Shown here in pieces: positions 3,921 to 42,032 of a stretch of DNA of 51,370 bases. The translations under genes were made by a program, and so were the position numbers. This DNA is from Methanomassiliicoccales archaeon (GTDB lineage: Archaea > Thermoplasmatota > Thermoplasmata > SG8-5), in assembly GCA_030612505.1 (NCBI GenBank), contig JAUWNU010000003.1:1-51370 (forward strand), written 5' to 3'. The stretch's first letter is position 1, and each line of letters starts with the position of its first letter. The notes under the pieces are model-generated. The model did not search any database. It saw only the letters and a program-made list of their open reading frames with translations, and was not told where the DNA came from.

Positions 3921-3971
3921 ATTTCGAGAACTGTACAACAAATCCTTATATACATTTCGAGAAGTGTACAA
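3921..3971 (+). promoter_or_regulatory. Paired 18-bp direct repeats, operator-like
   Basis: ATTTCGAGAACTGTACAA (3921-3938) recurs as ATTTCGAGAAGTGTACAA (3954-3971), 17 of 18 bases identical and start-to-start 33 bp (about three helical turns). Each copy contains the palindromes TTCGAGAA-like and TGTACA. A TATA-like CCTTATATACATT lies between them. Placement upstream of the giant membrane-bound wHTH gene suggests binding sites for a dimeric repressor or activator, possibly that protein itself (inference). Confidence 0.55.
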
Positions 3972-4027
3972 ATCTTTACTTATAACCTCTTTTATATTTA
4001 GTTCAATTAGCAGAGAACTTTCCCTTG

Positions 4028-4036
4028 TTATAAAAA
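4028..4036 (+). promoter_or_regulatory. TATA box for the membrane-tethered regulator
   Basis: TTATAAAAA lies about 50 bases before the chosen start and is followed by GAGGTGA (4070-4076), a good ribosome-binding site. An upstream alternative core promoter is the TATA-like sequence between the 18-bp repeats. Confidence 0.4.
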
Positions 4037-4081
4037 TGAGGAGGCAGTGGGTGCGGAAGCTTCTCTGTTGAGGTGAAGATG

Positions 4082-7000
4082 ATGGATAGGAATCAAGGGA
4101 AGAAAATCTTTGAAATGAAAAGTGTGATATGGATTGTCGCAGGAATGCTGATTATTTTACCCTTTTTTGGAATTATTGGAGCTAATGAGATAGGTCAATC
4201 AACTGTCAATACTATGCCTATAATAGATGTCACAAAGACAGCTCCTGCAACTGCCAACCCCGGCGAGACCATAACCTATACTATTAATTATCAAAATATA
4301 GGGAATGACACTGCGTTTAATGTGACTGTAAATGAATTTTATCCATCTGATATCACATTCGTGGATGCAAATCCTGTCCCTGATGTGGGAATTGATACCT
4401 GGTTCATCGGAACATTGGCATCTGGCGAGTGGGGGGTTATATACATCAATGTCACGATTAACGTAAATGCCATTGGCGTATTGAACAATACGGTCTCTGT
4501 TGATTACACCAACGATACAATGACTCCCTTTGGTCCCGAATACCATAGCGCATTCACGACTATTATAGAATCAGAAATAACTCTCAATGTTACAGTGAAT
4601 AATCCAAATCCGAACCAGGGAGATACAATCACAAAAACGATCACATACGAAAACGTCGGAACAGACATAGCAGACAATGTGGTGATAACAGAAACATACC
4701 CGCCGAATCTGACCTTTATCGGCGCAGTTCCCCCTCCGAGTGCGGGTAATAATGTCTGGATAATTAGCTCTATAGCTCCTGGCGGTAGCGGAATGATTCA
4801 AATCACACTTCAGGTAGGCATGGCTATTCCAAACGGTACTGTACTCACCAACTATGTGACATGCGATTATGACCCCGGTGCCAAGCAGAGCAATGACTCG
4901 GTGGAGATAATTGTTGGAAATGCGACTGGCTCAGTCCACAATATCGACACCGGCGAATACTTCTCCACAATTCAGGAGGCTATTGATGATGCAGACACTC
5001 TGAATGGGCATACAATTGAGGTTGATGCTGGAACTTATTATGAAAACGTGTTTGTGAATAAATCACTGACACTAATTGGTGAAAATAGGGATACGACGAT
5101 TATTGATGGTGGAGGGAGTGGTGATACAATTAATATCACTACGGATTGGGTAAATGTGAGCAGATTTACAATAATTGGTAGTGGCCCTCTTTCATTTGAT
5201 ACCTTCGACTCAGGTCTAGAATCAAAAGGGAACTATACTAGCATATCTGATTGTAAGTTCTCTGAGAACGCTATTGGGATACATTTTACTACCTCTAATC
5301 ATTCGGATGTTGCCAACTGCGAATTATCCCCCGATCATTCAACAGCAATCCGTTTAAATTCCAGTTCTAATATCCTCATAGTAAATTGTAATATTTCTGA
5401 CAACTGGTATGGGGTGGTCTTGGACAATACAAACGCTAGCACAATTGAGAAATGCACCTTACTAAATAACACATATAGTATCTACTTCAAATTTTCGAAT
5501 TACAATACTATCTCCGATTGTCGCCTTCTGGATCAGACTTATGGACTTTATTTTATTTTTTCATCGGGTAATAATATAGTTACTATATGCAACATTTCTG
5601 ATTCTGAGAGGGCTGTGAGCTTTGAGGTAGATAGTTATCAAAACCTCATCTTGAACTCTAGCATCTCAAATGCTTCTTTATATGATTTTCGCATCGGGAC
5701 CGGAGGAGTACTTTTATTGAATACGACATTTAACTCTTCAAAAGTACAAATAACTTCATTATATTCAAATTTGACAGTTCAGTGGTATTTACACATATAT
5801 GTAAACGATTCCTTTGACACTTTAGTTTCTGGGGGCCAGGTAGAGGTGGAGGATATAAATGAAAACCAAGTATTCACAGGAGTAACGGACATATCTGGAT
5901 ACTGTCGTTGGGTAATCTGTACTGAATATACCCAGAATTCTACTACTAAGAAATACTACACCCCTCACAAAGCTCATGTATGGAACACTACGCACCAGGG
6001 ATATGCCTATCCAAACATGGATATTTCAAAGAGGGTCACAGTTACTATCACTCCTTTACCAAAACCCGTCCGTAACATTGACACAGACGAATACTTCAAT
6101 GAAATCCAGGAAGCCATTGATGATTCTGATACTTTGAATGGCCACACAATCGAGGTCAGTGCCGGAACCTATAGTGAGAATGTTTTTGTGAATAAACAGC
6201 TGACTCTTGTTGGTGAAGACAGAAATACAACAACCATAGACGGTGGCGGAGTCGGTGATGTTGTACATGTCTTTGTGGATGGAGTAATTATTTCCGGTTT
6301 TACTATAACAAACAGTGGAAACCCAGGAGATTCAGGCATTTATGTTAACCAAGCTAGTAATTGTCAGTTTTTATACAACAATTTGTGGGACAATTATTAC
6401 GGAATATTAATCGAGTACTGCTCAAATAATACAGTATCTTATTCTAATTTCATTTCAAACGAACACGGCCTAAAATTTGTTGGCACTGTTATGGGCGGCA
6501 TACCTAAATTCAACACAATATCACACAATATATTTGAGAACATTGGCTATGGCTTGTGGTTGTCCCCCTCACAAAACAGTACAATAATTAATAACACCTG
6601 TACCGGCAATAATGTGGGCGTACTATTTCAGGCAGGGTCTAATTACAACACATTTTCAAATAACATTATCTCCTCAAATAGCCAGAATGGTATTTATTTG
6701 GGAGGAGACGCCAATAATACATTTACTAACAATAACATTTCATATAACAACATAGGCGTTAACTTGGAGAACCTGTTTTCAATGTGTAATACTTTTTATC
6801 ACAATAATTTCATAGGCAACACTGTTCACGCACTGGACAATACCGTAAATTATTGGGATAATGGCTACCCCTCTGGCGGAAATTACTGGAGTGATTACAC
6901 TGGCTCGGATGTTTATTCTGGCCCCGGACAGGATATTCCGGGCAGCGATGGCATAGGTGACACGCCTTATCTCGGAATAACTGGTGTTGCAGGAAACCTG

Positions 7001-9772
7001 GACAATTATCCATTATGGCAACCCACGGCAGAGGAAAGGCCAGTGGCAGTGGCAGAACCCAATAGCCAGACAACTTATGTTAGCTTAAGCGTCGGCTTTT
7101 CAGGCAACCTGTCCTTTGATTCTGATGGTTCCATTGTTTCGTACCTATGGAATTTTGGTGATGGAACAACCGGTGCAGGCAGCACCGCCACCCATGTATA
7201 CAATATATCTGGAAACTACACGGTAACCTTGACAGTGATTGACAATGACGGGCTGACAGACACTGACACTTGCATGGTTACTGTATATGGCTTCCAGGCT
7301 CCGGTAGCCATTGCCAGCCCGGATTATCAGATGATACTTAATGGAGAACTCCCTCTTGATGCGGCGATTTTTAATGCTAGCCTGTCCTATGACCCCGACG
7401 GAACCTTAGTCTCTTATCTATGGAATTTCGGTGATGGTCACACCGGTTCAGGAGAATTCACATCCCATGTTTACACGACAACCGGAAATTATACTGTGAC
7501 TTTGACTGTAACGGACAATGATGGCCTCACCGACACCGATACCTGCATTGTAAGCGTAGTCGGAGTGCAGCCGCCAGTCTCCATTGTGAAACCTGCATAC
7601 CAGGAAGTTGGAATCGGAGAAAATGCCACATTCTATTGCAAGGACTCCTATGACCCGGACGGCGTAATCCTGACATTTGAGTGGGCTTTCGGGGATGGTG
7701 AAATCTTTACCTCCACTTTATTCAGCAACGTGAACCATTCCTACAATGTCTCTGGAAATTACTCAGTAACATTAATGGTCTATGACAATGACGGGTTCAA
7801 TGACACCGATACTTGTACAGTGCGTGTAATTGGTATTCAGGTTCCAGTGGCAGTTGCGGCTCCTGATGCCCAGGAAATAATGGTCGATGAAAACGCATAT
7901 TTCTTCGCTAATCAATCCTTTGATATGGATGGCATAATCACAGGCTATTACTGGAACTACGGTGACGGCCACACTGGAACTGGCATCGCAGTGAATCACA
8001 GCTATTCGACATCCGGCTTTTACACAGTCATACTAACCGTGATGGACAATGACGGTCTCACTGGCACCACAATATGTTATGTGAATGTAACTGGCCTGAG
8101 CATACCTGTGGCCATAATAGAGCCAAGCTATCAAGAATGGCAGATAGGCGAAGTAGCGATATTTGATGGAAATCTTTCCTATGACCCTGACGGTGTGATA
8201 GTGACATATGAGTGGGACTTCGGGGATGGTCAGACCGGGATTGGTCCGATACAGGCCCACATTTACTCTTTACCTGGAAATTATACGGTGACCCTTACGG
8301 TTACTGACAATGATGGACAGACAGATACTGACACCAGCATAGTAATAATCATAGATTCCGCTCCGCCGGCGATATATGATGTCATGGTGGCACCGTCCGA
8401 ACCTAATAACAGGGCCAGAATTACGATACTATGCAGGGTCACTGACAATGTGGATATTGCCTCGGTCACACTTTCCTATCTCCACAATGGCACAGACTGG
8501 GTAACACTTCCAATGGCCAATGATGTATCCCAAGTATATCATGTGATATTCGGCCCGGTGAATCAGAATTTCACTTTCTATATCAATGTCACGGACACCA
8601 GTGGAAATGTGGCCTCCTATTCGGATGATGTGGTGGTCAGAACAGTTACGATAGAAACTACAGGGGAAGTTCCAGATGATGTAGGAAGTGGCTCAGAGGT
8701 TCATATCACAGGAACTGTATACGTGGATGGCGAGCTTAATGGAACTGGCTTCACAATTGTCATTCTCATTGACGGCGAAATTGTTGATAGTTGTGTTGTA
8801 CAGGAGGATGGAAGTTATAGCCTAGCCTTCATCCTACCTTCAGGAGGTTCTGCTGATTCTGTCCTTGAGATACAGTTACTGGACACTATCAGTGGGGAGG
8901 TGCTGCCCATAAGTTCATTTATCATTCCGGGAGAACAGCCGTTCCCATGGTTTATGATAATGATCGGTTCGATAATCTGTGCCTCTGCGGCTCTTGGTCT
9001 GGCCACCGAAGTTGGGAAGTTCAGTATATTGCTCTTTTTCCTGCCATTGTACACGAAGCTGAAGAAGGACGAGGTACTGGACACTTACACCAGGGGAAAG
9101 ATTCACGGTTACATCATGGCAAATCCCGGAGAACATTACAATGCTATAAAGAGGGCTCTTGGAATGAATAATGGCTCTCTGGCCTATCATCTTAATGTTC
9201 TCGAGAAAGAGGATTTAGTCAAGTCCAAAACTAATGGAATGTACAAGAGATTCTATCCCAAGGACATGATTCTCCCCAATGGGGGTCCCATATATCTCAC
9301 TGAAGCTCAGAAACTCATAATCAAGAACATCGAAGAAACACCTGGCATATCTCAGAAGGACATTGCCGCATTGCTGGGCATCAGTGCTTCCACTGTCAAC
9401 TATCACATAACCAGATTGGTTGAGATGAACGCGGTGAGAACCGAGAGAAAAGGAATTGGTGTGAAATATTACAAAACCCCCATGTCCCTTGACCATTTTG
9501 TGGCAGTAACATCTGCCCCGTCTCACCCTCCTGCGCAGCCAATGCCAGAAGAGCCACAATCGAAAGCAGTGGAGAGTATTGACTGCCCAAACTGTGAAAT
9601 GTTAATAGAGCCAGACATGAAGAATTGTCCATTTTGCGACCATACTCTGGAATCAGAGGACCCGGAAACCCAGAAAAAAAGGGAATTCCTTGAAAGGTTG
9701 GATAAGGCCTACAAGGAAGGAAGGATATCCGAATCTGCATATCAGAAAAACAGGGAAAAGTTTGGAAGTTGA
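4082..9772 (+). CDS. Giant membrane-tethered one-component regulator (DUF11, beta-helix, PKD, TM, double wHTH, zinc ribbon)
   Basis: About 1,896 residues. An N-terminal hydrophobic signal/anchor (~10-35) is followed by two DUF11-type repeats (~45-270). Two parallel beta-helix modules follow (~285-560 and ~660-960), each opening with a near-identical cap (IQEAIDD, DTLNGHTIEV, ENVFVNK). Five PKD repeats (~985-1425, each with WNFGDG-like and TVTLTV motifs) and two Ig-like segments come next. The transmembrane segment is FPWFMIMIGSIICASAALGL (~1620-1640). The cytoplasmic part has winged helix 1 (GKIHGYIMANPGEHYNAIKR), winged helix 2 (GISQKDIAALLGISASTVNY) and a CPNC-x11-CPFC zinc ribbon (~1835). 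Such a layout would couple an extracellular ligand, probably glycan or surface, directly to DNA binding; this role is inferred from architecture. GAGGTGA at 4070-4076 favours ATG 4082 over GTG 4073. The PKD-rich exterior could also act in adhesion. Confidence 0.88.
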   Translation: MDRNQGKKIFEMKSVIWIVAGMLIILPFFGIIGANEIGQSTVNTMPIIDVTKTAPATANPGETITYTINYQNIGNDTAFNVTVNEFYPSDITFVDANPVPDVGIDTWFIGTLASGEWGVIYINVTINVNAIGVLNNTVSVDYTNDTMTPFGPEYHSAFTTIIESEITLNVTVNNPNPNQGDTITKTITYENVGTDIADNVVITETYPPNLTFIGAVPPPSAGNNVWIISSIAPGGSGMIQITLQVGMAIPNGTVLTNYVTCDYDPGAKQSNDSVEIIVGNATGSVHNIDTGEYFSTIQEAIDDADTLNGHTIEVDAGTYYENVFVNKSLTLIGENRDTTIIDGGGSGDTINITTDWVNVSRFTIIGSGPLSFDTFDSGLESKGNYTSISDCKFSENAIGIHFTTSNHSDVANCELSPDHSTAIRLNSSSNILIVNCNISDNWYGVVLDNTNASTIEKCTLLNNTYSIYFKFSNYNTISDCRLLDQTYGLYFIFSSGNNIVTICNISDSERAVSFEVDSYQNLILNSSISNASLYDFRIGTGGVLLLNTTFNSSKVQITSLYSNLTVQWYLHIYVNDSFDTLVSGGQVEVEDINENQVFTGVTDISGYCRWVICTEYTQNSTTKKYYTPHKAHVWNTTHQGYAYPNMDISKRVTVTITPLPKPVRNIDTDEYFNEIQEAIDDSDTLNGHTIEVSAGTYSENVFVNKQLTLVGEDRNTTTIDGGGVGDVVHVFVDGVIISGFTITNSGNPGDSGIYVNQASNCQFLYNNLWDNYYGILIEYCSNNTVSYSNFISNEHGLKFVGTVMGGIPKFNTISHNIFENIGYGLWLSPSQNSTIINNTCTGNNVGVLFQAGSNYNTFSNNIISSNSQNGIYLGGDANNTFTNNNISYNNIGVNLENLFSMCNTFYHNNFIGNTVHALDNTVNYWDNGYPSGGNYWSDYTGSDVYSGPGQDIPGSDGIGDTPYLGITGVAGNLDNYPLWQPTAEERPVAVAEPNSQTTYVSLSVGFSGNLSFDSDGSIVSYLWNFGDGTTGAGSTATHVYNISGNYTVTLTVIDNDGLTDTDTCMVTVYGFQAPVAIASPDYQMILNGELPLDAAIFNASLSYDPDGTLVSYLWNFGDGHTGSGEFTSHVYTTTGNYTVTLTVTDNDGLTDTDTCIVSVVGVQPPVSIVKPAYQEVGIGENATFYCKDSYDPDGVILTFEWAFGDGEIFTSTLFSNVNHSYNVSGNYSVTLMVYDNDGFNDTDTCTVRVIGIQVPVAVAAPDAQEIMVDENAYFFANQSFDMDGIITGYYWNYGDGHTGTGIAVNHSYSTSGFYTVILTVMDNDGLTGTTICYVNVTGLSIPVAIIEPSYQEWQIGEVAIFDGNLSYDPDGVIVTYEWDFGDGQTGIGPIQAHIYSLPGNYTVTLTVTDNDGQTDTDTSIVIIIDSAPPAIYDVMVAPSEPNNRARITILCRVTDNVDIASVTLSYLHNGTDWVTLPMANDVSQVYHVIFGPVNQNFTFYINVTDTSGNVASYSDDVVVRTVTIETTGEVPDDVGSGSEVHITGTVYVDGELNGTGFTIVILIDGEIVDSCVVQEDGSYSLAFILPSGGSADSVLEIQLLDTISGEVLPISSFIIPGEQPFPWFMIMIGSIICASAALGLATEVGKFSILLFFLPLYTKLKKDEVLDTYTRGKIHGYIMANPGEHYNAIKRALGMNNGSLAYHLNVLEKEDLVKSKTNGMYKRFYPKDMILPNGGPIYLTEAQKLIIKNIEETPGISQKDIAALLGISASTVNYHITRLVEMNAVRTERKGIGVKYYKTPMSLDHFVAVTSAPSHPPAQPMPEEPQSKAVESIDCPNCEMLIEPDMKNCPFCDHTLESEDPETQKKREFLERLDKAYKEGRISESAYQKNREKFGS

Positions 9773-10897: not shown

Positions 10898-11126
10898 CCG
10901 CAATCGTTTATTTTACGCAAGTGTGATTGCGGGCCTATGATATTCTACTAGCATATTGCTTTCAGTCATACCAGGTAGGGTTCTACATTAGTTTTTATTT
11001 AGACATCGAACCCAACAATTGTTTTCAGGTTGTTTCGAGCAGTATGGCATTAGATTTAAGTTGAATATGTTGCCATGCCATTGTCGAATTCTCTGTTTGG
11101 ACTATTATGTAAGGCGAATTCAACTT
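10898..11126 (+). repeat. Dispersed 229-bp repeat, copy 1
   Basis: This segment is matched along its whole length, with scattered substitutions, by 36683-36910. Shared blocks include the CCGCAAT stem, GATATT, TTCTACATTA, AGTATGGCATT, ATGTTGCCATGCCATTGTCGAAT and a terminal ATTCAACT. Two stems are visible: CCGCAATC/GATTGCGG (10898-10905 with 10925-10932) and ATGGCAT/ATGCCAT (11044-11050 with 11075-11081). It fills the space between two convergent genes. No terminal inverted repeats or coding frame are seen. A MITE remnant, a structured RNA or a 3'-end element are all possible. Confidence 0.8.
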
Positions 11127-13074
11127 ACCAGTCTATTATCCATATCGTGTCTGCCGGCACGTGAACCCAATACCCTTCACCAGGCTTCATAATATAGGTT
11201 GCTTCAACCTCATCAATCAGATACGGTGAGCTTGCATTGAAAACCTCTACACGGTCTGCACCAGTGCCCCACAAAGCGTTTCCTACAGTTTCTGTGTTCA
11301 GTGAGGGATAACTAACAAGATTCCAACCAGCATGTAGATTGATAGTAGTGGAGGATGGTAAAACACCGCTTACTGTTAAGGTCACATTCGGCTCGGTGAT
11401 GTTAATCCAGAAGCCCATAGTGTTATCGATGTCAGCCAAGTCATTGGTTGAAGCACCTACACGATAGGTCTTCCAGGGGTCGGCACTATCAGTATTGTCA
11501 TGATATTTCACAACATTCCATTTGCCAGTAATGTTCTCCAGAACTTTATCTATTGATTCGTCTCTTTGAATCAATGGTGTTGAAATCAAGTTCCAGCCAG
11601 GGGATAAAGGTATACTGAATATCTGAGGTGGCATCCAGGGTTTTATAAATGGATAATTGTCTTGGCTATCTCCGTCAATTATGTATGGCGTATCTCCAAT
11701 TCCATCTGATGGGGGTACATCTTGGGTTGCTGTGCTATTGAAGTCCACGCCATTGTAATCAGACCAGTAGTTCCCACCATCTGGATAGCCGTTGTCCCAA
11801 AAATTGACATTATCGTCAAATGCCTGGATTGTATTATTGATTATATTGTTAAAGAAGATAAGATTGTTGACTGAGGTCATGAGGTGGAAGCCAATGACGT
11901 TCGAAAATATTGTGTTGTTGGTGATAGTGTTGTTAAGGGAAGCATAGAGACCAAGCCCATAATTGTTGTTTGATGCGGAATTGTTGATTATCGTATTGTT
12001 ATTTGACCATCCGATATCAATGCCATTTCCCGTGTTCGGAACATCGTTATTTGCGATTCTATTATTATTTGAATACCCAAGAGAAATGCCGACCTCATTA
12101 TTCCACGATACCGTATTATTACTGAGAATATTGTTATCAGAAAATGTCATACGTATGCCAACGTCGCCGTCAGATATGGTATTATTAGCAATAATATTAC
12201 CATCCGAAATATCAAGGCTGAAGACAATGGATGTATTTCCAGACATTCCACCTGAAACAGTGTTGGTGATGATAGAATTGTTATTGGATGAGGAAAGAAA
12301 AATCCCAGATTTATTGACAAAATTATTCATAATAATATTATCATTTGCAGATGAAAGGTAAATGCCAATATTAACATTCGAGAAAGCTGAGTTGTTTGTC
12401 AGCGTATTGTTGCTGGATTGGATAAGAAAAATGCCCCTGCCGTTCAAGGAAACGTTGTTATTGGATATGGTATTGTAGTTGGAGCGTCCGATGCTGCTGA
12501 TGGCAAATCCAAGATAAATGCCTTCAAAGTTATTCAAGGCGGTATTGTTGGTAATTGTAATATTGAGAGATGAGGCAAGGGCTATTCCACTATGGTCGTT
12601 AAATGATGCAGTGTTGTTGTTGATATTATTGTCATGACATTCGTAAATGTATATTCCATAACCATTATTCGAGGCGATGTTATTCCATAAAGTGCCATTC
12701 ATGACATTATTCATAGCAAATCCAGAGTTAGGGTGGTATGGTGCAAGACCAAATCCTCTGGCATTGTAGAGAGAGCAGTTTCTTATCACGAAATGCTCGG
12801 TCGTATTTCCAACGTAGATACAATAACCATATCCAGTTCCATTAATTTCGTAATTCTCAATTATCCAAGGGCTGATGAGACTTCCATCCCCGGAAGTTGC
12901 AATACCAGGGAAATCAGCATTGGAATCAATTCTGATTGGTGCATGGGGGGTGTAGTTTATTCTATTGGTATCTTCTGGTATTTCGCCAGTAGTCAAAGAT
13001 AAAGGCATAACCAAGCTTAAAAATACAAAAAATGCGACTGCACCCACAACCTTGGAACTGTGCTTGCTTCCCAT
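11125..13074 (-). CDS. Secreted NosD-like right-handed beta-helix protein
   Basis: 649 residues. An N-terminal signal peptide (VVGAVAFFVFLSLVMPLSL) is followed by the GDGSLISPWIIENYEING entry motif. About 15 short beta-helix rungs rich in NN and NNTI/NNTV follow (~75-430), then the closing module WDNGYPDGGNYWSDY...SDGIGDTPYI. The same closing module occurs in the 4082-9772 protein. The C-terminal ~170 residues contain two GWNL(I/V)S repeats and end in GEGYWVHVPADTIWIIDW. I recognise this kind of tail from other Thermoplasmatota secreted proteins, and it may be a surface-sorting or attachment domain (inference). It is likely extracellular and carbohydrate-related. The gene stands alone with its own TATA box. 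Confidence 0.85.
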   Translation of the reverse strand: MGSKHSSKVVGAVAFFVFLSLVMPLSLTTGEIPEDTNRINYTPHAPIRIDSNADFPGIATSGDGSLISPWIIENYEINGTGYGYCIYVGNTTEHFVIRNCSLYNARGFGLAPYHPNSGFAMNNVMNGTLWNNIASNNGYGIYIYECHDNNINNNTASFNDHSGIALASSLNITITNNTALNNFEGIYLGFAISSIGRSNYNTISNNNVSLNGRGIFLIQSSNNTLTNNSAFSNVNIGIYLSSANDNIIMNNFVNKSGIFLSSSNNNSIITNTVSGGMSGNTSIVFSLDISDGNIIANNTISDGDVGIRMTFSDNNILSNNTVSWNNEVGISLGYSNNNRIANNDVPNTGNGIDIGWSNNNTIINNSASNNNYGLGLYASLNNTITNNTIFSNVIGFHLMTSVNNLIFFNNIINNTIQAFDDNVNFWDNGYPDGGNYWSDYNGVDFNSTATQDVPPSDGIGDTPYIIDGDSQDNYPFIKPWMPPQIFSIPLSPGWNLISTPLIQRDESIDKVLENITGKWNVVKYHDNTDSADPWKTYRVGASTNDLADIDNTMGFWINITEPNVTLTVSGVLPSSTTINLHAGWNLVSYPSLNTETVGNALWGTGADRVEVFNASSPYLIDEVEATYIMKPGEGYWVHVPADTIWIIDW

Positions 13075-13107
13075 TATCCAATCTCCATAGAAAAGATTCT
13101 CATGATA

Positions 13108-13135
13108 CTATATAAATCTATAGTGGTTATAACCA
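13108..13135 (-). promoter_or_regulatory. TATA box plus 12-bp palindrome upstream of the beta-helix gene
   Basis: On the minus strand TTTATATAG (13108-13116) sits about 35 bases before the ATG at 13074. Immediately upstream is the perfect palindrome TGGTTATAACCA (13124-13135). Its position next to the TATA box suits an operator for a dimeric regulator. Confidence 0.5.
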
Positions 13136-13271
13136 TTAAATAATCAACATGGGCATTACTAACAATAATGCTATTATGATTGAAGCCCACAGTTTTTCTC
13201 TCATCAATAGTGAAATGAAGTTACTGGCGTTTAATTGTTTTGGTTATGGTACTAATTAATCCTTTCATTCC

Positions 13272-13300
13272 AAAAATGATCGTCGTGCACCGTCATTTTT
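13272..13300 (-). terminator. Hairpin downstream of tfs
   Basis: An 8-bp perfect inverted repeat AAAAATGA / TCATTTTT with a 13-base loop lies about 90 bases past the tfs stop on its transcribed strand. It is a plausible terminator for the wecB-wecC-tfs transcript. The rest of 13136-13388 shows no gene. Confidence 0.4.
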
Positions 13301-13388
13301 CGTTAAGCTGGCGTAATAACGACAGCTTTGGAAAAATAGGTCGTACGACTGCCTCACAGTTGAAGTATTCTGGCACAGCCAGATAACT

Positions 13389-13688
13389 TCAATTTTCTCT
13401 CCACTTATGTTTACATTTTACACACTGATATATACGGGTCTCGGGTTCATCGGCCGCCCTCATCTGCCTCAGCACCCAGAATGCCATATTATGCCCGCAT
13501 TTGGGGCATTCGGCCTTTGTTTTAGGTAGCGTCTCGGTGTTCTCGTCAATGACTAAAATTTCCTTGTCCTCATTCCTCTTTGTAACTATGCATTCTTTGC
13601 CAGTGGCATCACACAGATACCCGCATTTCTTGCATATCCACTTACCTTCCGAGGGTGTCATCATTGACTTACATTTTTTGCAGAACAT
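13389..13688 (-). CDS. tfs: Transcription factor S (TFIIS/RPB9-like cleavage factor)
   Basis: 99 residues from ATG 13688; an upstream extension of the frame has no homology and would run into wecC. The N-terminal zinc ribbon is FCKKC...WICKKCGY. The C-terminal TFIIS-type ribbon is CPKCG...YQCVKCKHKW, with the acidic tip ADEPET that inserts into the RNA polymerase active site to stimulate transcript cleavage. The length is typical of archaeal TFS. It lies 62 bases after wecC on the same strand and is either read with it or from a weak TATA-like CTTTTTATCC about 40 bases before its start. Confidence 0.93.
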   Translation of the reverse strand: MFCKKCKSMMTPSEGKWICKKCGYLCDATGKECIVTKRNEDKEILVIDENTETLPKTKAECPKCGHNMAFWVLRQMRAADEPETRIYQCVKCKHKWREN

Positions 13689-13749
13689 GTTTGCACCTAC
13701 AATTACCCTATTACTGTCTTGGATAAAAAGATTGCTGGTTATTATTGCT

Positions 13750-15057
13750 CTATGACCTGCCGTCTCCGAGATACCTGAAGTCCCAGCCAGCTTTGGCCCA
13801 CGAGTCCCGGTCCAGCACCCTTCTGGTATCAAGTATGGAATTGCCCTTTGCCTTTTCCAGCATCTCTGCTCCATTGATATTTTTAAAGTCGCTGTGGCCG
13901 GTGGTTACCAGCACGGCGTCAGCATCTTCCATTGCCTCTGCAAGCTCATATAATTCAAATCCAGCATTCTTCACATATGGGTCATGGACCTTGCATTTTG
14001 CTCCACCGGATTCTAAAATTTTCATTATCTCCAGTGCCGGACTTTCCCTGCAATCCCCAACATCTGCCTTGTATGCCAGTCCCAGAATTGCTATGTTTTT
14101 GCCCTGAAGGCCGCCAAGCATATCACTCAATATTTTTACGACCAGCCCTGGCATTTCCGTGTTAACAATTCTGGCAAGTGCCAGCATTCTGGCGGTTTCC
14201 GGTGCGCCGTCGATTATGAAGTAGGGGTCTACAGCAATGTAGTGTCCGCCTACCCCTGGTCCTGGCTGGAGAATGTTCACCCTTGGGTGACGGTTGGCAA
14301 TCTGGATTGCGTCCCTAACATCAATTCCAAAATCATATGATAATTGAGCAAGCTCATTGGCAAATGCTATATTTACATCTCGATATGAATTTTCCACCAG
14401 CTTCACAAACTCGGCAGTTGTGGAATCTGTGATCACTATCTCGCCTGTCACAAAGCATGAGTATAATTCTTTGGCACGGCTGGCTGCCTTTGGAGTTAGG
14501 CCGCCTATTACCCGGTCAAGGGTGGAAAGCTCCAGAAGGATATCTCCTGGTATCACCCGCTCAGGTGCAAATGCCAGGTCAACATCATTCTCCGGGTCAA
14601 GGCCAATTTCCTTAACCAGGCCTGCCACAAGGTCTGAGGTCGTGCGCGGCGGCACTGTGGACTCAAGTATCACCATATTGCCCTTTTGAAGTAAAGGAAG
14701 TATTGATCTGACTCCTTTTTCCACATAGGACATATCTGCCTTCTTGTTTGGCAGTATTGGAGTTGGTAAACAGATGATGAAAACGTCTGCTGCTTCCGGT
14801 TTATCCGAGAGTGTGAAACGTCCTGACTCCAGCTCTCCAAGGACAAGCTGCGCCAGTCCTGGCTCCTCCGGGGTCGCGCCCTGCTTTCGTATATCATCCA
14901 GGACCTGTGGAATAACATCCATGCCTGCCACATTGTGTCCTTTACTGGCCAGTATGGCTGCAGTTGGCAGTCCAATGTATCCCAGTCCTATAACACATAT
15001 CGAGAAACGAGAATTTGTTTCGAGCAAGGGGGAAACTTGTTTTCCTCGCAGTTTCAT
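13750..15057 (-). CDS. wecC: UDP-N-acetyl-D-mannosaminuronate dehydrogenase homologue lacking the catalytic Cys
   Basis: 435 residues of the UDP-glucose/UDP-ManNAc dehydrogenase family. The N-terminal Rossmann motif is VIGLGYIGLPTA (~22-33), followed by ESTVPPRTT, AFAPERVIPG, the lysine helix EFVKLVENSYRDVNIAFANE, and a C-terminal domain with ILGLAYKADVGDCRESPA. The closest family by motif is WecC (UDP-ManNAc to UDP-ManNAcA), normally carrying GVGGHCIAVDP. Here the stretch reads GVGGHYIAVDP: the codon is TAC on the coding strand where TGC (catalytic Cys) is expected. It overlaps the wecB stop by one base. As written the enzyme should be inactive or altered; a sequencing error is the alternative. 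Confidence 0.88.
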   Translation of the reverse strand: MKLRGKQVSPLLETNSRFSICVIGLGYIGLPTAAILASKGHNVAGMDVIPQVLDDIRKQGATPEEPGLAQLVLGELESGRFTLSDKPEAADVFIICLPTPILPNKKADMSYVEKGVRSILPLLQKGNMVILESTVPPRTTSDLVAGLVKEIGLDPENDVDLAFAPERVIPGDILLELSTLDRVIGGLTPKAASRAKELYSCFVTGEIVITDSTTAEFVKLVENSYRDVNIAFANELAQLSYDFGIDVRDAIQIANRHPRVNILQPGPGVGGHYIAVDPYFIIDGAPETARMLALARIVNTEMPGLVVKILSDMLGGLQGKNIAILGLAYKADVGDCRESPALEIMKILESGGAKCKVHDPYVKNAGFELYELAEAMEDADAVLVTTGHSDFKNINGAEMLEKAKGNSILDTRRVLDRDSWAKAGWDFRYLGDGRS

Positions 15058-16139
15058 TACAAGGCCTCCACAATTATTCTGGCAATGTTCTTTCCTGCAT
15101 TTCCATCACCGTAGGGCGATGGGACTGAAGGGGCCTGGCCAGCCGAGACTTCATTCTCAATGGCCCTGGCAATATCTCCGGCATCTGTGCCAACCATTGT
15201 GGCGTAGCCAGTATCAATGGCTTCTGGTCTTTCGGTGCTCTTGCGGAATACCAGCACACGTTTTCGAATAGACGGGGACGTAGCTTCCTCCTGAATGCCT
15301 CCTGAATCTGAAAATATAAAACGACATTTTCTCATCATTGCCAGGAAGTCGAAATATCCTGCCGGCGGTATAAGATGAACATTATCAGAGCTAGCTAGTT
15401 TATCATATAATCCAAATTGACCAAGCATTTTCTTGGTTCTTGGGTGAAGTGGATACACAACTGGTAGCGGGGCCTTGTCAAGAACATCCACCAGTCCTGA
15501 AAGTACTGACTGGTCATCAACATTCTCTGCCCTGTGAGCAGTCACCAGGATATAATCATCAAAAGGTATTTCTTTGGCAACCTGGCTTTTTTCTTCTGCA
15601 AGCTTGACATATCTCTCGCATGCGTCAATAACCGTATTGCCGGTCATGTGAATATCGCCCCATACTTTCTCATCCTCCAGAATACTGGCGGAGTCCGGTG
15701 TCGGGGCAAATAGATAATGTGAGATGTGGTCAGCGATTCTTCGATTGTATTCTTCAGGCATGCGCCTGTCATTGCTTCTTAATCCTGCCTCAACATGCCC
15801 AACCTTGATGCCCATTTTAACCGCAGTAAGCGCGCCAGCTAGGACCGTATTTGTATCTCCCTGGACAAGTACGCTGTCAGGCCTTTTATCCTCAAGTACC
15901 TTTTCCAATTTGTACATGCAGTCAGCAGTTTGTGCTGCCTGGGTCCCAGAACCTACCTTGAGATAATGATCAGGAGTTCTCATTCCAAGGTCCCTGATGA
16001 AACTTTCTGAAAGCGCATCATCATAATGCTACCCACTGTGAATCAATATCACTTCCTCGCCCATCCCCTCCAGGGCAAAGAGTACAGGAGCCATCTTGAT
16101 AAGTTCAGGGCGTGTGCCGAGTACTATCGCAGTTGTCAC
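15057..16139 (-). pseudogene. wecB: UDP-N-acetylglucosamine 2-epimerase with in-frame amber codon
   Basis: The family frame starts at GTG 16139 (TTAIVLGTRPELIKMAPV) and reads in phase to 15057, about 360 codons, near the E. coli WecB length of 376. A TAG at 16029-16031 interrupts it at the conserved Gln of the HSG-Q-HYD motif, so CAG to TAG is the simplest change. Downstream motifs are intact: QGDTNTVLAG, HVEAGLRS, TAHRAEN, SDSGGIQEEA, ERPEAI. Restart at ATG 15983 would give 308 residues without the TRPExIK loop that binds substrate. The gene would convert UDP-GlcNAc to UDP-ManNAc for the adjacent wecC. Alternatives are amber suppression or an assembly error. Confidence 0.85.
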
Positions 16140-37184: not shown

Positions 37185-40100
37185 TTAATCTTCTAAGAAA
37201 GAAGTTCCACAGTGAGAACATTCTTCAGCATCTGCAGCAACAAAATTACCACAATCTTCACAATAGGTATCACACTCAGGGCACCTATACATTCCATTGA
37301 AGATTTCATACATGTGGCCACATAATTTACAATGATTAATCTTAGGTATCTGTAATTGACCATTAGGTAATTTTTCAAGGCGATTTTTTTGTTGTAAAGT
37401 AGTAACAACACTGCCCACTCTCTTTCGAACCATTTCTCCAGTTCTGTTAAAACCAAATAATCTTGCTGTCTGAGCTATAATATCTTCTCTGGTTAGGCTG
37501 AAAGCATTCTCCACTACAAGACAAGCGGCCTCACCAATCTCTTCTTTTGCTATCAAATTTATTGTTCTGGGCTTATGCCCTGGTGCAGGAATTCTAACCT
37601 TTGGAGTGGTCATTGATGTTTTCCATACAAATTCGTCTTTTAAGGACAAATTATCCGAACAATTGATTCTGTAAATGATATTGTTTATAATTTTAGAACC
37701 GGCTTTATTCATACACCAGAATTGAGCGACCCTTCGAGAGGCCTCCCTTATGTGAATTGGGCCTTCAACTTGAACAACACGATATAATATATTACCCACC
37801 TGGTAGCTTCCATAAAATTCTTTTGGTTCACCAAATATTTGAACATTTGTTTTACTATAATATTTGACATTAGAAGGCAATTTAAAGTTATCATTTTCCT
37901 CATCAACTTCTTCGGATTCTTCAAAAGATTCATCTCGTTCTTCTTCAATTTCTGGCTCAATCTTCAAAGGTTGTTTTTTTTTGACTGGAGTGGTAAGAGC
38001 TTTCTTAATCTTTTCAATCTCCCCTTTGGGATTGTCAATCCAGTCTCTAGACCATATTCTGTGGATTCTCCATCCGAGGTTTTCAAGAACTTGTTGTCTC
38101 AATCTATCCCTGTCTCGAGCAGTCTTACCTGAATGATAACTGGCTCCGTCACATTCTATTCCCAGTAGATACAGACCAGGCTTATCAGAGTCAACTATAG
38201 CTAAATCTATTTTATAGCCTGAGCAACCAACTTGCTTCTGCACTTTGAAACCTTCAGCAACAAGGGCATTCCACACTTCTTCTTCAAATGGAGAATCAAA
38301 GTCACTTTCAATTTCTTCTGCACTGTGGGCAAACATTGCTGAAGGTCCATCTTGAGCATATTCCATGTAGTTTTTGAGGAGTTTAACACCTCTGCTCTGT
38401 GTCTTAGAAACATCCATATCATAAGGTAAAATTGATGATACCAATTTAACATGCGATCGAGCTCTTGTGATGGCCACATTCAATCTTCGTTCTCCACCCT
38501 TCTGATTCAGTGGGCCAAAACTCATGGACATTCTTCCCAGAGCGTCTTTGCCATACCCAACACTGAAGAACATAACTTCACGCTCATCGCCTTGTACATT
38601 CTCCAGGTTTCGCACGAAGAAGTTTTCCTCTAAATCCTCATTGAAGAAGGGTTCAAGTGAGGTGTCCTCTCGCCTCTTCCGCTCCAACTCATCGTTGATA
38701 GCCAGCATTTGTGCTTCACTGAAGGCAACCACACCAAGGGTTTTATCTGGGTGTGTTCTGAAATGTTCAAACACTAAGTCTGCAACCTTTCTTGCCTCAT
38801 CAACATTCCTTCGGCTTTTTCCCCTGTCATAGACCCCTCCTTCAACATATACATGCTCTACTCCAGCGTAGTCGTCTTTTGCTGTAATACTTGGGAATGT
38901 GTTGAGTCTGTTCATATAGAAATTAAAATTGGAAAATGCAATTAGATTTTCATGCTTACTTCTATAGTGCCACATCAACAGTTTAGACGGGAGCCCAATG
39001 CTATCACACTCATCCAGTATGCTCTCAAATTCATCCATTTCTTCATAGGACTCATCATCAAAGTCATCAACTCCCGATGAAACAAAGAACTTGGTTGGTG
39101 GAAGCTGCTTATTATCTCCAACAACAATAACTTCACGTCCGCGCATAATTGCACCTATGGCATCTTCAGGGCATATCTGTGAGGCTTCATCAAACACAAC
39201 TACATCAAATTTATAGATATCTGGGTCAATGAACTGGCTCACAGACAAAGGACTCATAAGTATACAAGGTTTGATTGTTAGCAATAAGTTTGATATCTCG
39301 GAAAATAAAACTCTAATTGGCTTATGTCTCCTCTTCTTATTTGCTTCTCTTTTTATTATGCTTTGTTCTGAACTTGGAGCATCAACCCATTGGTTGTGTG
39401 GTTTTTTATTAGCAAGTTTCAAGACTAATCTCTTCTCTGAAATATTAATGAGTTCGGTATCTAACTTGACAAAACGTTCAATATATGCTTCATGTTGTTT
39501 GCTACTGAAGTTGATTAGAACTTCATCTTCGGAATAAACATAATCTATCCAATGCCGGTAAAATCCTTTATAAAATGCACTTTTCAGACTCTTAGAATCT
39601 AATTCTTTTTCAAATGAATTATCTATGAAATCTTGTAGTTTATGGATCTTAAATTTCTTAATAATTCCATAATACGAAATCCAATCTTTTAGTTGTTGAA
39701 TGTTCTCAATCTTCTGCTCTATCCATTGATATAACTTTAGATACTCACATTTATTAAAAGGGACTTCAGAAAACAAGTCTGGCTCCTCATCAAAGTAGCT
39801 CATGATTTTATCATGTCTTTGAGCAAGTCCTTTGTTGATATATTCTCTTATCTTATCTGGTTTCATGCCGGACAATTTGGATCTTGTTTCAATATCATTT
39901 GAGGCAATTTTAACAACCTTATCTGGAACCGTATTATTTGAGAAGATATTCTGCAATTTGCTTGTCCATTCGAGGGCATTGGATATTTGAGACCAATCTG
40001 TTTTCTCTCCAATATAATAATGTCTAAACGTTTTCTTGAAATTTATTTCATGGCCTTCTAATTGTCTCTTTAACTTCGTTACATCAATCATCTTTTTTAG

Positions 40101-42032
40101 GTCTTTAAGTGCATCATTGTATTTCAATTTTGAATTTTTGGAGTATTGGGACAACTTGTTCATATCCTGTTTATAACTCCCCTTAAATATCCTGAAAAAT
40201 GAAGTGTAGTCATTGAGGAATCGAGAGTATAGGGATTGGATATCTAAGCTGAAAATCTCTTTATCATACCTATTAGAAATAGCATTTATTTCCGTTAAGT
40301 ATTTTGAGGTTATGCTTTCCCCTTCCAAAGCCAAATCTCCAATTTCTGTGAGGTCTGAATCATTTATCCAGGCCTCTGGTGGAGATGGAGACACGGTCAA
40401 ATGTTCAGCGCATTTACAGAGCCATTCAGCGACACCCACATTTTTTGGAGGGGAGTATGACAAAATACTTGCTAAGTTATTTCCTCTTTGTTGAACATTG
40501 GTTATTGTATTTTTATATGATTCAAAATCCTCTTGAACTGTATTTTGAACTTCAAAAGAATATTGCCCTATATTACATCCTTTCCAAGGATGGCTTAAAT
40601 GATTATCATAAATATGACCCATAGAGGTAAGGCGATCCAGTAGTGTATCATACTCTTCAAAAGACTGGTCATTCACATCAGAGATATTTGGAACCTTGAA
40701 TCGTAAATCTGGGGCGTCATCTAACGCCGCGAGTTCTCCATGCACTTGGTAAGCAGAGAGATTCAACTTAGTTCTTTTCTTATGTAGTGCCATCACATAG
40801 CTGTTCAACCGTCCCCTTAATTTTTGTAATTCGTTGAGCTTTTGAAGTTGTTTACTATTAACTTTCGGCCTATTATTTTCGGCATCAAGTGTGTTTCCAA
40901 GTTCTGTAATTACTTGTTTTTTATTGGCTTTGTGACTGTGCAACTCAAGGCAGAACTCACCTAAGCTATGTTGATCCAGTCTCTTTTTGACAACTTCTAA
41001 TGCAGCCATTTTCTCACTAACAAAAAGAACTGTTTTATCTGCTTCTAAACATTCTGCAATAATATTGGCTATGGTTTGACTTTTTCCTGTTCCAGGAGGC
41101 CCTTGAATTATGAAGCTAACTCCCCTCTTTGCAGCTATAATAGCTTCCTGTTGGCTTGAATCCGCATCTAATATCTGAAATGTTTCTTCGGGTTTGATTT
41201 CATAATCTAACTTCTCTGCAGTTGGCAAATCTCTTGGCACTTTAGGCAGCTTAGAGCTGTCCCCTGCCAGAGCACAAACAATAGGATGATCACCGAGGAC
41301 TTTGCTGTAAGTTTCAAGGTCTTTGAACATTATAAATTTCTTAAATGAAAATAGGCCTAGATGAACTTCATTTGTAATATTCCAGCCAGGAAGTTTGTTA
41401 ATTTTAGTCTCTATTTTTCTATATTCAGTACTCAAATCAAAATCATCTAAATCTGGCAATTCTTGGAATGTCAGGTTAAAATCATTTAATAATTTTTGAA
41501 GAAGTGTTGGATTAAATATTATTTCTTCTTCTAATAACTTAATCTTAAATGGTTCGGTAATTGATTCCCTTTTTATTTTAACAGGCGCAAGGAACAGTGG
41601 TGATCTAATAATCTTATCACTTGCATCAGCCTCTGTCCAGTTAAGCATGCCAAAAGCCACATAAAGTATGTTAACCCCTTGTTCTAAAAAGGCAGTATTA
41701 GATCTGAGCCGGATTGTATTCAAAATTCTATTCTGGTCTCCCTCATTCTTAGCTGTAATCAAATCTTTTTGATTGAGTTTATAATTGCCAAATGAAATTT
41801 CAGATAATGACATCTCTTGAATGTCATTGAAAATTCTTCCTTGCCACTTAAAAATCATCTCACGACCTTTCTTTACTAAAGTGTCGAAAGCATCCTCTGG
41901 CTGAGGATATAAAATATTGACTGAACCGGTTTTAGTTTCCCGGAAGTTAAGAAGCCTATTTCTTTTGCTGAGGTCAATTAGGTTAGCCTTCCATTGTTCA
42001 ATTTTTTGATTCAATTCTGGGTTACTGGTCAT
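37185..42032 (-). CDS. DUF4011 - SF1 helicase - Vsr-like nuclease - DUF3320 protein (defence candidate)
   Basis: 1,615 residues. The N-terminal DUF4011-type region (LIDLSKRNRLLNFRETK) is followed by SF1 helicase motifs: Walker A IIQGPPGTGKSQTIANI (~312), an unusually long insert (~400-900), Walker B VVFDEASQI (~945), GDNKQLPPTKF, WHYRSKHE, VQGDEREV and LNVAITRARSHVKL. A Vsr/DUF559-like nuclease domain (~1244-1360) has EEEVWNAL, YKIDLAIVD, IECDGASYHS and GWRIHRIWSRDW. A DUF3320-like domain (~1410-1545) precedes a C-terminal zinc ribbon of several CxxC pairs. Single-gene proteins of this layout occur in phage-defence catalogues (sometimes as Hhe). A nucleic-acid-degrading defence role is likely but inferred. 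It lies 66 bases after the 159-aa gene, probably one operon. Confidence 0.88.
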   Translation of the reverse strand: MTSNPELNQKIEQWKANLIDLSKRNRLLNFRETKTGSVNILYPQPEDAFDTLVKKGREMIFKWQGRIFNDIQEMSLSEISFGNYKLNQKDLITAKNEGDQNRILNTIRLRSNTAFLEQGVNILYVAFGMLNWTEADASDKIIRSPLFLAPVKIKRESITEPFKIKLLEEEIIFNPTLLQKLLNDFNLTFQELPDLDDFDLSTEYRKIETKINKLPGWNITNEVHLGLFSFKKFIMFKDLETYSKVLGDHPIVCALAGDSSKLPKVPRDLPTAEKLDYEIKPEETFQILDADSSQQEAIIAAKRGVSFIIQGPPGTGKSQTIANIIAECLEADKTVLFVSEKMAALEVVKKRLDQHSLGEFCLELHSHKANKKQVITELGNTLDAENNRPKVNSKQLQKLNELQKLRGRLNSYVMALHKKRTKLNLSAYQVHGELAALDDAPDLRFKVPNISDVNDQSFEEYDTLLDRLTSMGHIYDNHLSHPWKGCNIGQYSFEVQNTVQEDFESYKNTITNVQQRGNNLASILSYSPPKNVGVAEWLCKCAEHLTVSPSPPEAWINDSDLTEIGDLALEGESITSKYLTEINAISNRYDKEIFSLDIQSLYSRFLNDYTSFFRIFKGSYKQDMNKLSQYSKNSKLKYNDALKDLKKMIDVTKLKRQLEGHEINFKKTFRHYYIGEKTDWSQISNALEWTSKLQNIFSNNTVPDKVVKIASNDIETRSKLSGMKPDKIREYINKGLAQRHDKIMSYFDEEPDLFSEVPFNKCEYLKLYQWIEQKIENIQQLKDWISYYGIIKKFKIHKLQDFIDNSFEKELDSKSLKSAFYKGFYRHWIDYVYSEDEVLINFSSKQHEAYIERFVKLDTELINISEKRLVLKLANKKPHNQWVDAPSSEQSIIKREANKKRRHKPIRVLFSEISNLLLTIKPCILMSPLSVSQFIDPDIYKFDVVVFDEASQICPEDAIGAIMRGREVIVVGDNKQLPPTKFFVSSGVDDFDDESYEEMDEFESILDECDSIGLPSKLLMWHYRSKHENLIAFSNFNFYMNRLNTFPSITAKDDYAGVEHVYVEGGVYDRGKSRRNVDEARKVADLVFEHFRTHPDKTLGVVAFSEAQMLAINDELERKRREDTSLEPFFNEDLEENFFVRNLENVQGDEREVMFFSVGYGKDALGRMSMSFGPLNQKGGERRLNVAITRARSHVKLVSSILPYDMDVSKTQSRGVKLLKNYMEYAQDGPSAMFAHSAEEIESDFDSPFEEEVWNALVAEGFKVQKQVGCSGYKIDLAIVDSDKPGLYLLGIECDGASYHSGKTARDRDRLRQQVLENLGWRIHRIWSRDWIDNPKGEIEKIKKALTTPVKKKQPLKIEPEIEEERDESFEESEEVDEENDNFKLPSNVKYYSKTNVQIFGEPKEFYGSYQVGNILYRVVQVEGPIHIREASRRVAQFWCMNKAGSKIINNIIYRINCSDNLSLKDEFVWKTSMTTPKVRIPAPGHKPRTINLIAKEEIGEAACLVVENAFSLTREDIIAQTARLFGFNRTGEMVRKRVGSVVTTLQQKNRLEKLPNGQLQIPKINHCKLCGHMYEIFNGMYRCPECDTYCEDCGNFVAADAEECSHCGTSFLED

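Follow-up and report, generated by a model that had tools for sequence, protein, structure and literature searches.

The window, as we call the whole 51,370-nucleotide stretch of Methanomassiliicoccales DNA analyzed here, encodes an 1896-amino acid (aa) giant protein that is probably a membrane-tethered, one-component transcription factor of an ectodomain-swapped type, which would bind a tandem operator in its own promoter. The best reading of our sequence comparisons is that the targets of this regulator family are the members' own genes plus surface or uptake genes. Membrane-bound one-component regulation itself is not new, being known from ArnR/ArnR1 in archaea (PMC6396743) and CadC/ToxR in bacteria (PMC5430869). 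An earlier note on this DNA, made from the sequence alone, had suggested a possible new archaeal sensory class; as a general idea this had been anticipated by those systems. The source archaeon is uncultured, and the genome of the window is 85% complete.

Pfam, hydropathy, AlphaFold and, for the zinc ribbon, the sequence itself confirmed the layout that the earlier note had read from the single chain: an anchor, two DUF11 repeats, two beta-helix modules, five PKD repeats, a membrane segment, two winged helices and a zinc ribbon (Table 1). To this we add two further beta domains between the PKD repeats and the membrane helix. The two beta-helix modules match Beta_helix/NosD (E = 1e-46/1e-39), the first winged helix (wHTH1) is HTH_HVO_0163_N (PF24266; E = 2.6e-17, 63.1 bits against a curated cut-off of 31) and the second (wHTH2) is HTH_24/MarR_2 (E = 8e-17/1.6e-9), all by Pfam. 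AlphaFold, run on residues 1418–1896 with an alignment of 39 related C-termini, predicted a helix at 1643–1658 that carries on from the membrane helix and, as the note had expected, an HTH fold past residue 1660. Hydropathy, charge and sequon bias predict that the chain is N-out/C-in, with its termini on opposite sides of the membrane rather than both outside; a weak extra hydrophobic window (residues 724–742) sits within the second beta-helix. Neither a histidine kinase nor a receiver domain was found among the best 25 Pfam matches of the protein, and a phosphorelay was dropped on that ground, in line with the original reading. There was likewise no match to an RsgI-type N-terminal sigma-binding intracellular domain.

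Table 1. Features of the giant regulator gene and its promoter, in window positions
Feature	Position	Strand	Basis or remark
Operator copy 1, TTTCGAGAACTGTACAA	3922..3938	+	0 mismatches; conserved in G012, degenerate in G001 promoters
TATA-like box TTATATAC between operator copies	3946..3953	+	Sequence; repeat-then-TATA layout recurs in paralogue promoters
Operator copy 2, TTTCGAGAAGTGTACAA, 33 bp from copy 1	3955..3971	+	21-bp block 20–21/21 identical in four promoters
Conserved TATA-like box TTTACTTATA just past operator copy 2	3975..3984	+	Conserved in four promoters
5' leader hairpin abutting Shine-Dalgarno GAGGTGA	4007..4071	+	Single-sequence fold, -23.9 kcal/mol
Membrane-anchored regulator gene, 1896 aa	4082..9772	+	ORF; start 4079 or 4082, after GAGGTGA
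N-terminal signal/anchor, residues 15–33	4124..4180	+	Hydropathy 2.56
Two DUF11, residues about 48–265	4223..4876	+	Pfam, E = 1.5e-24
Beta-helix module 1, residues about 283–534	4928..5683	+	Pfam Beta_helix/NosD; BLAST boundaries
Beta-helix module 2, residues about 662–941	6065..6904	+	Pfam NosD
Five PKD, residues about 985–1425	7034..8356	+	Pfam PKD_4, 5 stretches, E = 7e-96
Membrane-proximal beta domains, residues about 1426–1614	8357..8923	+	AlphaFold strands, low to medium confidence
Transmembrane helix, residues 1623–1641	8948..9004	+	Hydropathy (1624–1642), AlphaFold
Conserved hinge TE.GK...PLY..(K/R)KK, residues 1642–1662	9005..9067	+	Alignment of 64 members
Winged helix 1, residues 1662–1726	9065..9259	+	Pfam PF24266; AlphaFold pLDDT mostly 92–97
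Winged helix 2, residues 1741–1798	9302..9475	+	Pfam HTH_24/MarR_2; AlphaFold pLDDT mostly 89–97
Zinc ribbon CPNC...CPFC, residues 1835–1852, accessory	9584..9637	+	Sequence
C-terminal two-helix tail, residues 1861–1895	9662..9766	+	AlphaFold pLDDT about 84–95

The C-terminal 187 residues match 46 of 61 related genomes at E ≤ 1e-10, with 21 such matches in a single 5.2 Mb genome and clear family members in 26 of the 61 (best E ≤ 9e-27). A profile of the module matches 158 of 293 genomes of the phylum at E ≤ 1e-25, although the weaker of these may reflect soluble proteins with a double wHTH. The relatives located are metagenome-assembled and carry the titles Methanomassiliicoccales, Thermoplasmata, Thermoplasmatota or Euryarchaeota. 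As the earlier note had foreseen, Thermoplasmatota share a C-terminal TM-wHTH-wHTH module that is joined to a range of exteriors; the zinc ribbon that the note had counted in the shared module is an optional part, present in 5 of 64 members. A literature search of partial coverage found no description of a TM-hinge-wHTH-wHTH family.

The 64 members that were extracted range from 342 to 2721 aa (exteriors of 143–2488 aa) and have both winged helices in common. Their hinge is conserved at E1643 (62/64), P1655 (60/64), Y1657 (60/64) and basic residues, and their exteriors are unrelated: NosD/PKD/DUF11, FG-GAP, CARDB, PKD-CARDB and VIT-VWA by Pfam, and a single Ig-like domain by AlphaFold. In one genome (G019, L081 984-2618) an SBP_bac_5 solute-binding protein is fused directly to the membrane-wHTH-wHTH module (E = 7e-35). 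An N-terminal hydrophobic segment was found in 55 members, several of the remaining nine being truncated or masked, and a membrane segment precedes the winged helices in 59. Lysine and arginine make up 5% of residues outside versus 17% inside, and N-glycosylation sequons number 1.68 per 100 residues outside versus 0.70 inside. The giant itself has the predicted exported N-terminus, single membrane helix and variable exterior of the family, followed by the hinge and the two winged helices.

A giant multidomain exterior, membrane-proximal beta domains and a single membrane helix could also serve a release mechanism, in which a ligand or shear leads to proteolysis in or near the membrane helix and frees a soluble double-wHTH factor, as in the RsgI cascade, where divergent extracellular sensors signal via successive cleavage (PMC12203970). 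We consider this unlikely, as the conservation of the hinge (E1643, PLY) looks like that of a link which is itself important, and the smallest members have just one Ig-like domain outside, as modeled by AlphaFold.

For a transcription factor that stays in the membrane, as we favor, a candidate DNA target lies in its own promoter. The earlier note had pointed to possible binding at 3921–3971, and this interval holds a direct repeat that is conserved in orthologue promoters. Positions 3922–3938 and 3955–3971 both match the 17-bp repeat TTTCGAGAASTGTACAA with 0 mismatches, for a chance expectation in the window of 0.24 sites at up to 3 mismatches, and the 2.25 Mb assembly contains no other site at up to 2 mismatches. 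The promoter reads ATTTCGAGAA(C/G)TGTACAA twice, 33 bp apart, the copies preceding TTATATAC and TTTACTTATA; ACAAATCwwTACTTATA is kept in four giant-type promoters, and the shared GTACAAAT half sits at the expected BRE position. In G012, which belongs to another family of the order, the orthologue's exterior differs, combining beta-helix modules with other repeats, and its promoter carries two identical 20-bp copies of TATTTCGAGAACTGTACAAA, 32 bp apart, with a score that none of 20 simulated sequences attained. In G001, of the same genus, an operator pair with a degenerate first copy precedes the giant's orthologue, and the pair also precedes an adjacent gene for a secreted 661-aa DUF11/PKD protein without winged helices.

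The sequence 50–110 bp upstream is only 25–33% identical between G000 or G001b and G012, whereas the 21-bp operator block is identical at 20–21 of 21 positions. Among 61 genomes, 0-mismatch sites were confined to G000, G001 and G012, exactly the genomes with a close orthologue. The three orthologue loci all lie downstream of monomeric isocitrate dehydrogenase, and because they share this one syntenic place, part of the promoter identity reflects common descent. Even with 2 mismatches allowed, the window genome, which is 85% complete, yielded no second target site. A wider regulon was also considered; the degenerate operator (up to 2 mismatches) showed no clear excess over the reversed pattern, and we therefore claim none for the giant. 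Further downstream, the leaders of the orthologues fold as that of the giant does (-26.3 in G001 and -41.0 in G012, single-sequence folds), and these hairpins hint at translational control.

Three operator groups share STGTACMA, repeated at 32–33 bp, and each paralogue group carries its own private half-site. A paralogue of ~344 aa with an Ig exterior is present in the order's genomes, and its promoters share TACAAAAnssCGTACAAAT before TATA. Across 13 genomes of the order, ACAAAN5GTACAAAT occurs at 21 sites versus 3 for the reversed pattern, preceding the small paralogue itself and an Opp-type ABC-transporter operon, which encodes an SBP_bac_5 protein bearing Ig-like Big_1/invasin domains, permeases and oligopeptide-type ATPases (two of each) and a small protein. 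In G009 this operon lies 34 kb from the regulator gene, so one promoter region common to both does not account for the shared site; the G019 fusion independently links solute binding and the regulator module. Both Opp permeases, at 680 and 774 aa, are very large and contain long insertions, one with PQQ-like repeats (L182 4457-8825). The third group, from three species of another family, has exteriors of VIT-VWA type, and its promoters contain CTGTACCAAC...GTGTACCAAC (STGTACCAA twice), 33 bp apart, with a TATA-like box after each copy.

In 150 genomes, STGTACMAN{25,26}TGTACMAA had 14 matches versus 4 for the reversed pattern. Twelve of the 14 hold a TATA-like box between the copies, all of them in the order or the third group; the other two, which have none, look like chance. 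One of the 12 (G012:C140) reaches a contig end. Two, both in G006 (L210 and L201; C97 and C3), precede genes for a 289-aa membrane protein with a zinc ribbon and for a short exported protein of 204 aa. In the promoters of other paralogues, direct repeats mostly did not exceed what chance would give, and many members in other families had no recognizable promoter repeat. These operator counts are partly circular because the patterns were derived from the same promoters that were later counted; the only counterweights are recurrence in orthologues and the comparison with reversed patterns.

The sites might instead belong to an unrelated regulator or be unusual core-promoter elements, the membrane wHTH gene being merely regulated. 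ACAAAT would suit a BRE and lies directly against TATA, and in the site-bearing G006 (59% complete) no regulator was detected. This account appears improbable to us, as the element is absent upstream of 20 other window genes, the giant's exact operator occurs solely alongside its orthologue, each paralogue group has a private half-site, and GT[AG]C[AC]AA is found in 16 of 58 member upstreams versus 7 of 198 controls (Fisher P = 5e-7, with orthologues not independent). The same sites bear on whether the protein could be a surface adhesin tethered to the chromosome, its winged helices a DNA anchor rather than a regulator. The exterior is of adhesin type, and Foldseek with the whole C-terminal model gave low TM-scores only, against generic tandem-wHTH and FNIII folds, the top matches including ScpB and other tandem wHTH architectural proteins. 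We regard such a role as highly implausible, given candidate sites that are promoter-located, few per genome and adjoin TATA, and that for the small paralogue mark a transporter operon.

Returning to a membrane-tethered regulator of its own gene, we infer site binding by the 1896-aa protein, dimerization, ligand, signal transfer and the sign of regulation as follows. The signal/anchor would export the DUF11-beta-helix-PKD part, and one membrane helix with the hinge TEvGK...PLYtklKK would join this exterior to two cytoplasmic winged helices. These would bind the two TTTCGAGAASTGTACAA copies beside the TATA-like boxes and, in the sister species, also the promoter of the adjacent secreted DUF11/PKD gene. 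Because 33 bp is about three helical turns, the copies should lie on one face of the DNA, and the tethered protein, with two winged helices per chain, would be dimeric or higher on these two in-phase sites. A surface event (ligand, matrix contact or tension) would then act on the tethered dimer, or on the way it contacts DNA, and thereby change promoter use; activation is slightly the likelier sign, given the position of the sites immediately upstream of TATA. The predicted operators of all three groups suggest feedback on the regulator's own gene, and the adhesin-type domains together with the co-regulated surface/uptake genes suggest matrix, glycan or peptide cues. A broader scheme is more tentative: members may form phylum-wide receptors, up to about 20 per genome, in which a conserved wHTH1 reads the common STGTACMA and a variable wHTH2 the private half-site, each type of exterior (matrix-binding, Ig, VWA or solute-binding) being wired to its own gene and to matching surface/uptake genes. 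We keep this assignment of half-sites to winged helices provisional because a possible BRE overlaps the half that is conserved beside TATA.

Archaeal routes from surface information to promoters are poorly known. The polarity opposite to ArnR, the swapped exteriors and the specific predicted operators and targets (self, a surface protein and the Opp transporter) make direct tests possible, and the small paralogue, with 344 aa and a single Ig-like outer domain, offers a tractable model. Elsewhere in the window, the region that directly follows the regulator and a radical SAM gene (11125–15983) encodes, on the opposite strand, a beta-helix (NosD) protein whose neighbors are genes for UDP-sugar dehydrogenase and UDP-GlcNAc 2-epimerase, and a 1615-aa DUF4011 - AAA_11/AAA_12 - MTES_1575 nuclease - DUF3320 protein (37185–42032) resembles a helicase-nuclease defence protein.

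Among known systems, ArnR and ArnR1 of Sulfolobus acidocaldarius are one-component regulators in the membrane of an archaeon, with promoter boxes of surface-structure genes as their DNA targets; ArnR starts with an HTH, continues with a HAMP and sensor region and ends in two membrane helices (PMC6396743). By prediction, the giant shares the membrane-bound, one-component archaeal design and the binding of promoters; it differs in its N-out/C-in topology, large exterior, one membrane helix and two C-terminal winged helices. ToxR and CadC likewise combine a wHTH, a membrane helix and an exported sensor in one chain. CadC begins with a cytoplasmic OmpR-type wHTH at its N-terminus, whereas the giant has the reversed domain order, with two C-terminal PF24266/MarR-like winged helices, an archaeal core promoter and an adhesin-type exterior.

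The giant's first winged helix, by exceeding the curated cut-off, also resembles the HTH_HVO_0163_N (PF24266) double-wHTH proteins, with matches in Haloferax, Methanosarcina acetivorans and M. jannaschii; the nearest solved chain is 5duk (E = 2e-12). Unlike the giant with its exterior, the haloarchaeal matches mainly cover the wHTH pair, and no giant exterior turned up beyond the phylum. A Methanomethylovorans plasmid protein (METHO_RS12575, 235 aa; L195 967-1674) has, by inspection, a signal, a short exterior, a membrane helix and two winged helices, and on this predicted layout the TM-wHTH-wHTH architecture exists beyond Thermoplasmatota. Sensor-swapping around a shared inner module has a parallel in Clostridium thermocellum, where the RsgI anti-sigma factors are paralogues that keep one inner module while their extracellular sensor domains are exchanged (PMC12203970, PMC4711584); while RsgI binds a sigma factor and signals by proteolysis, the inner module of the giant's family is itself a DNA-binding fold.
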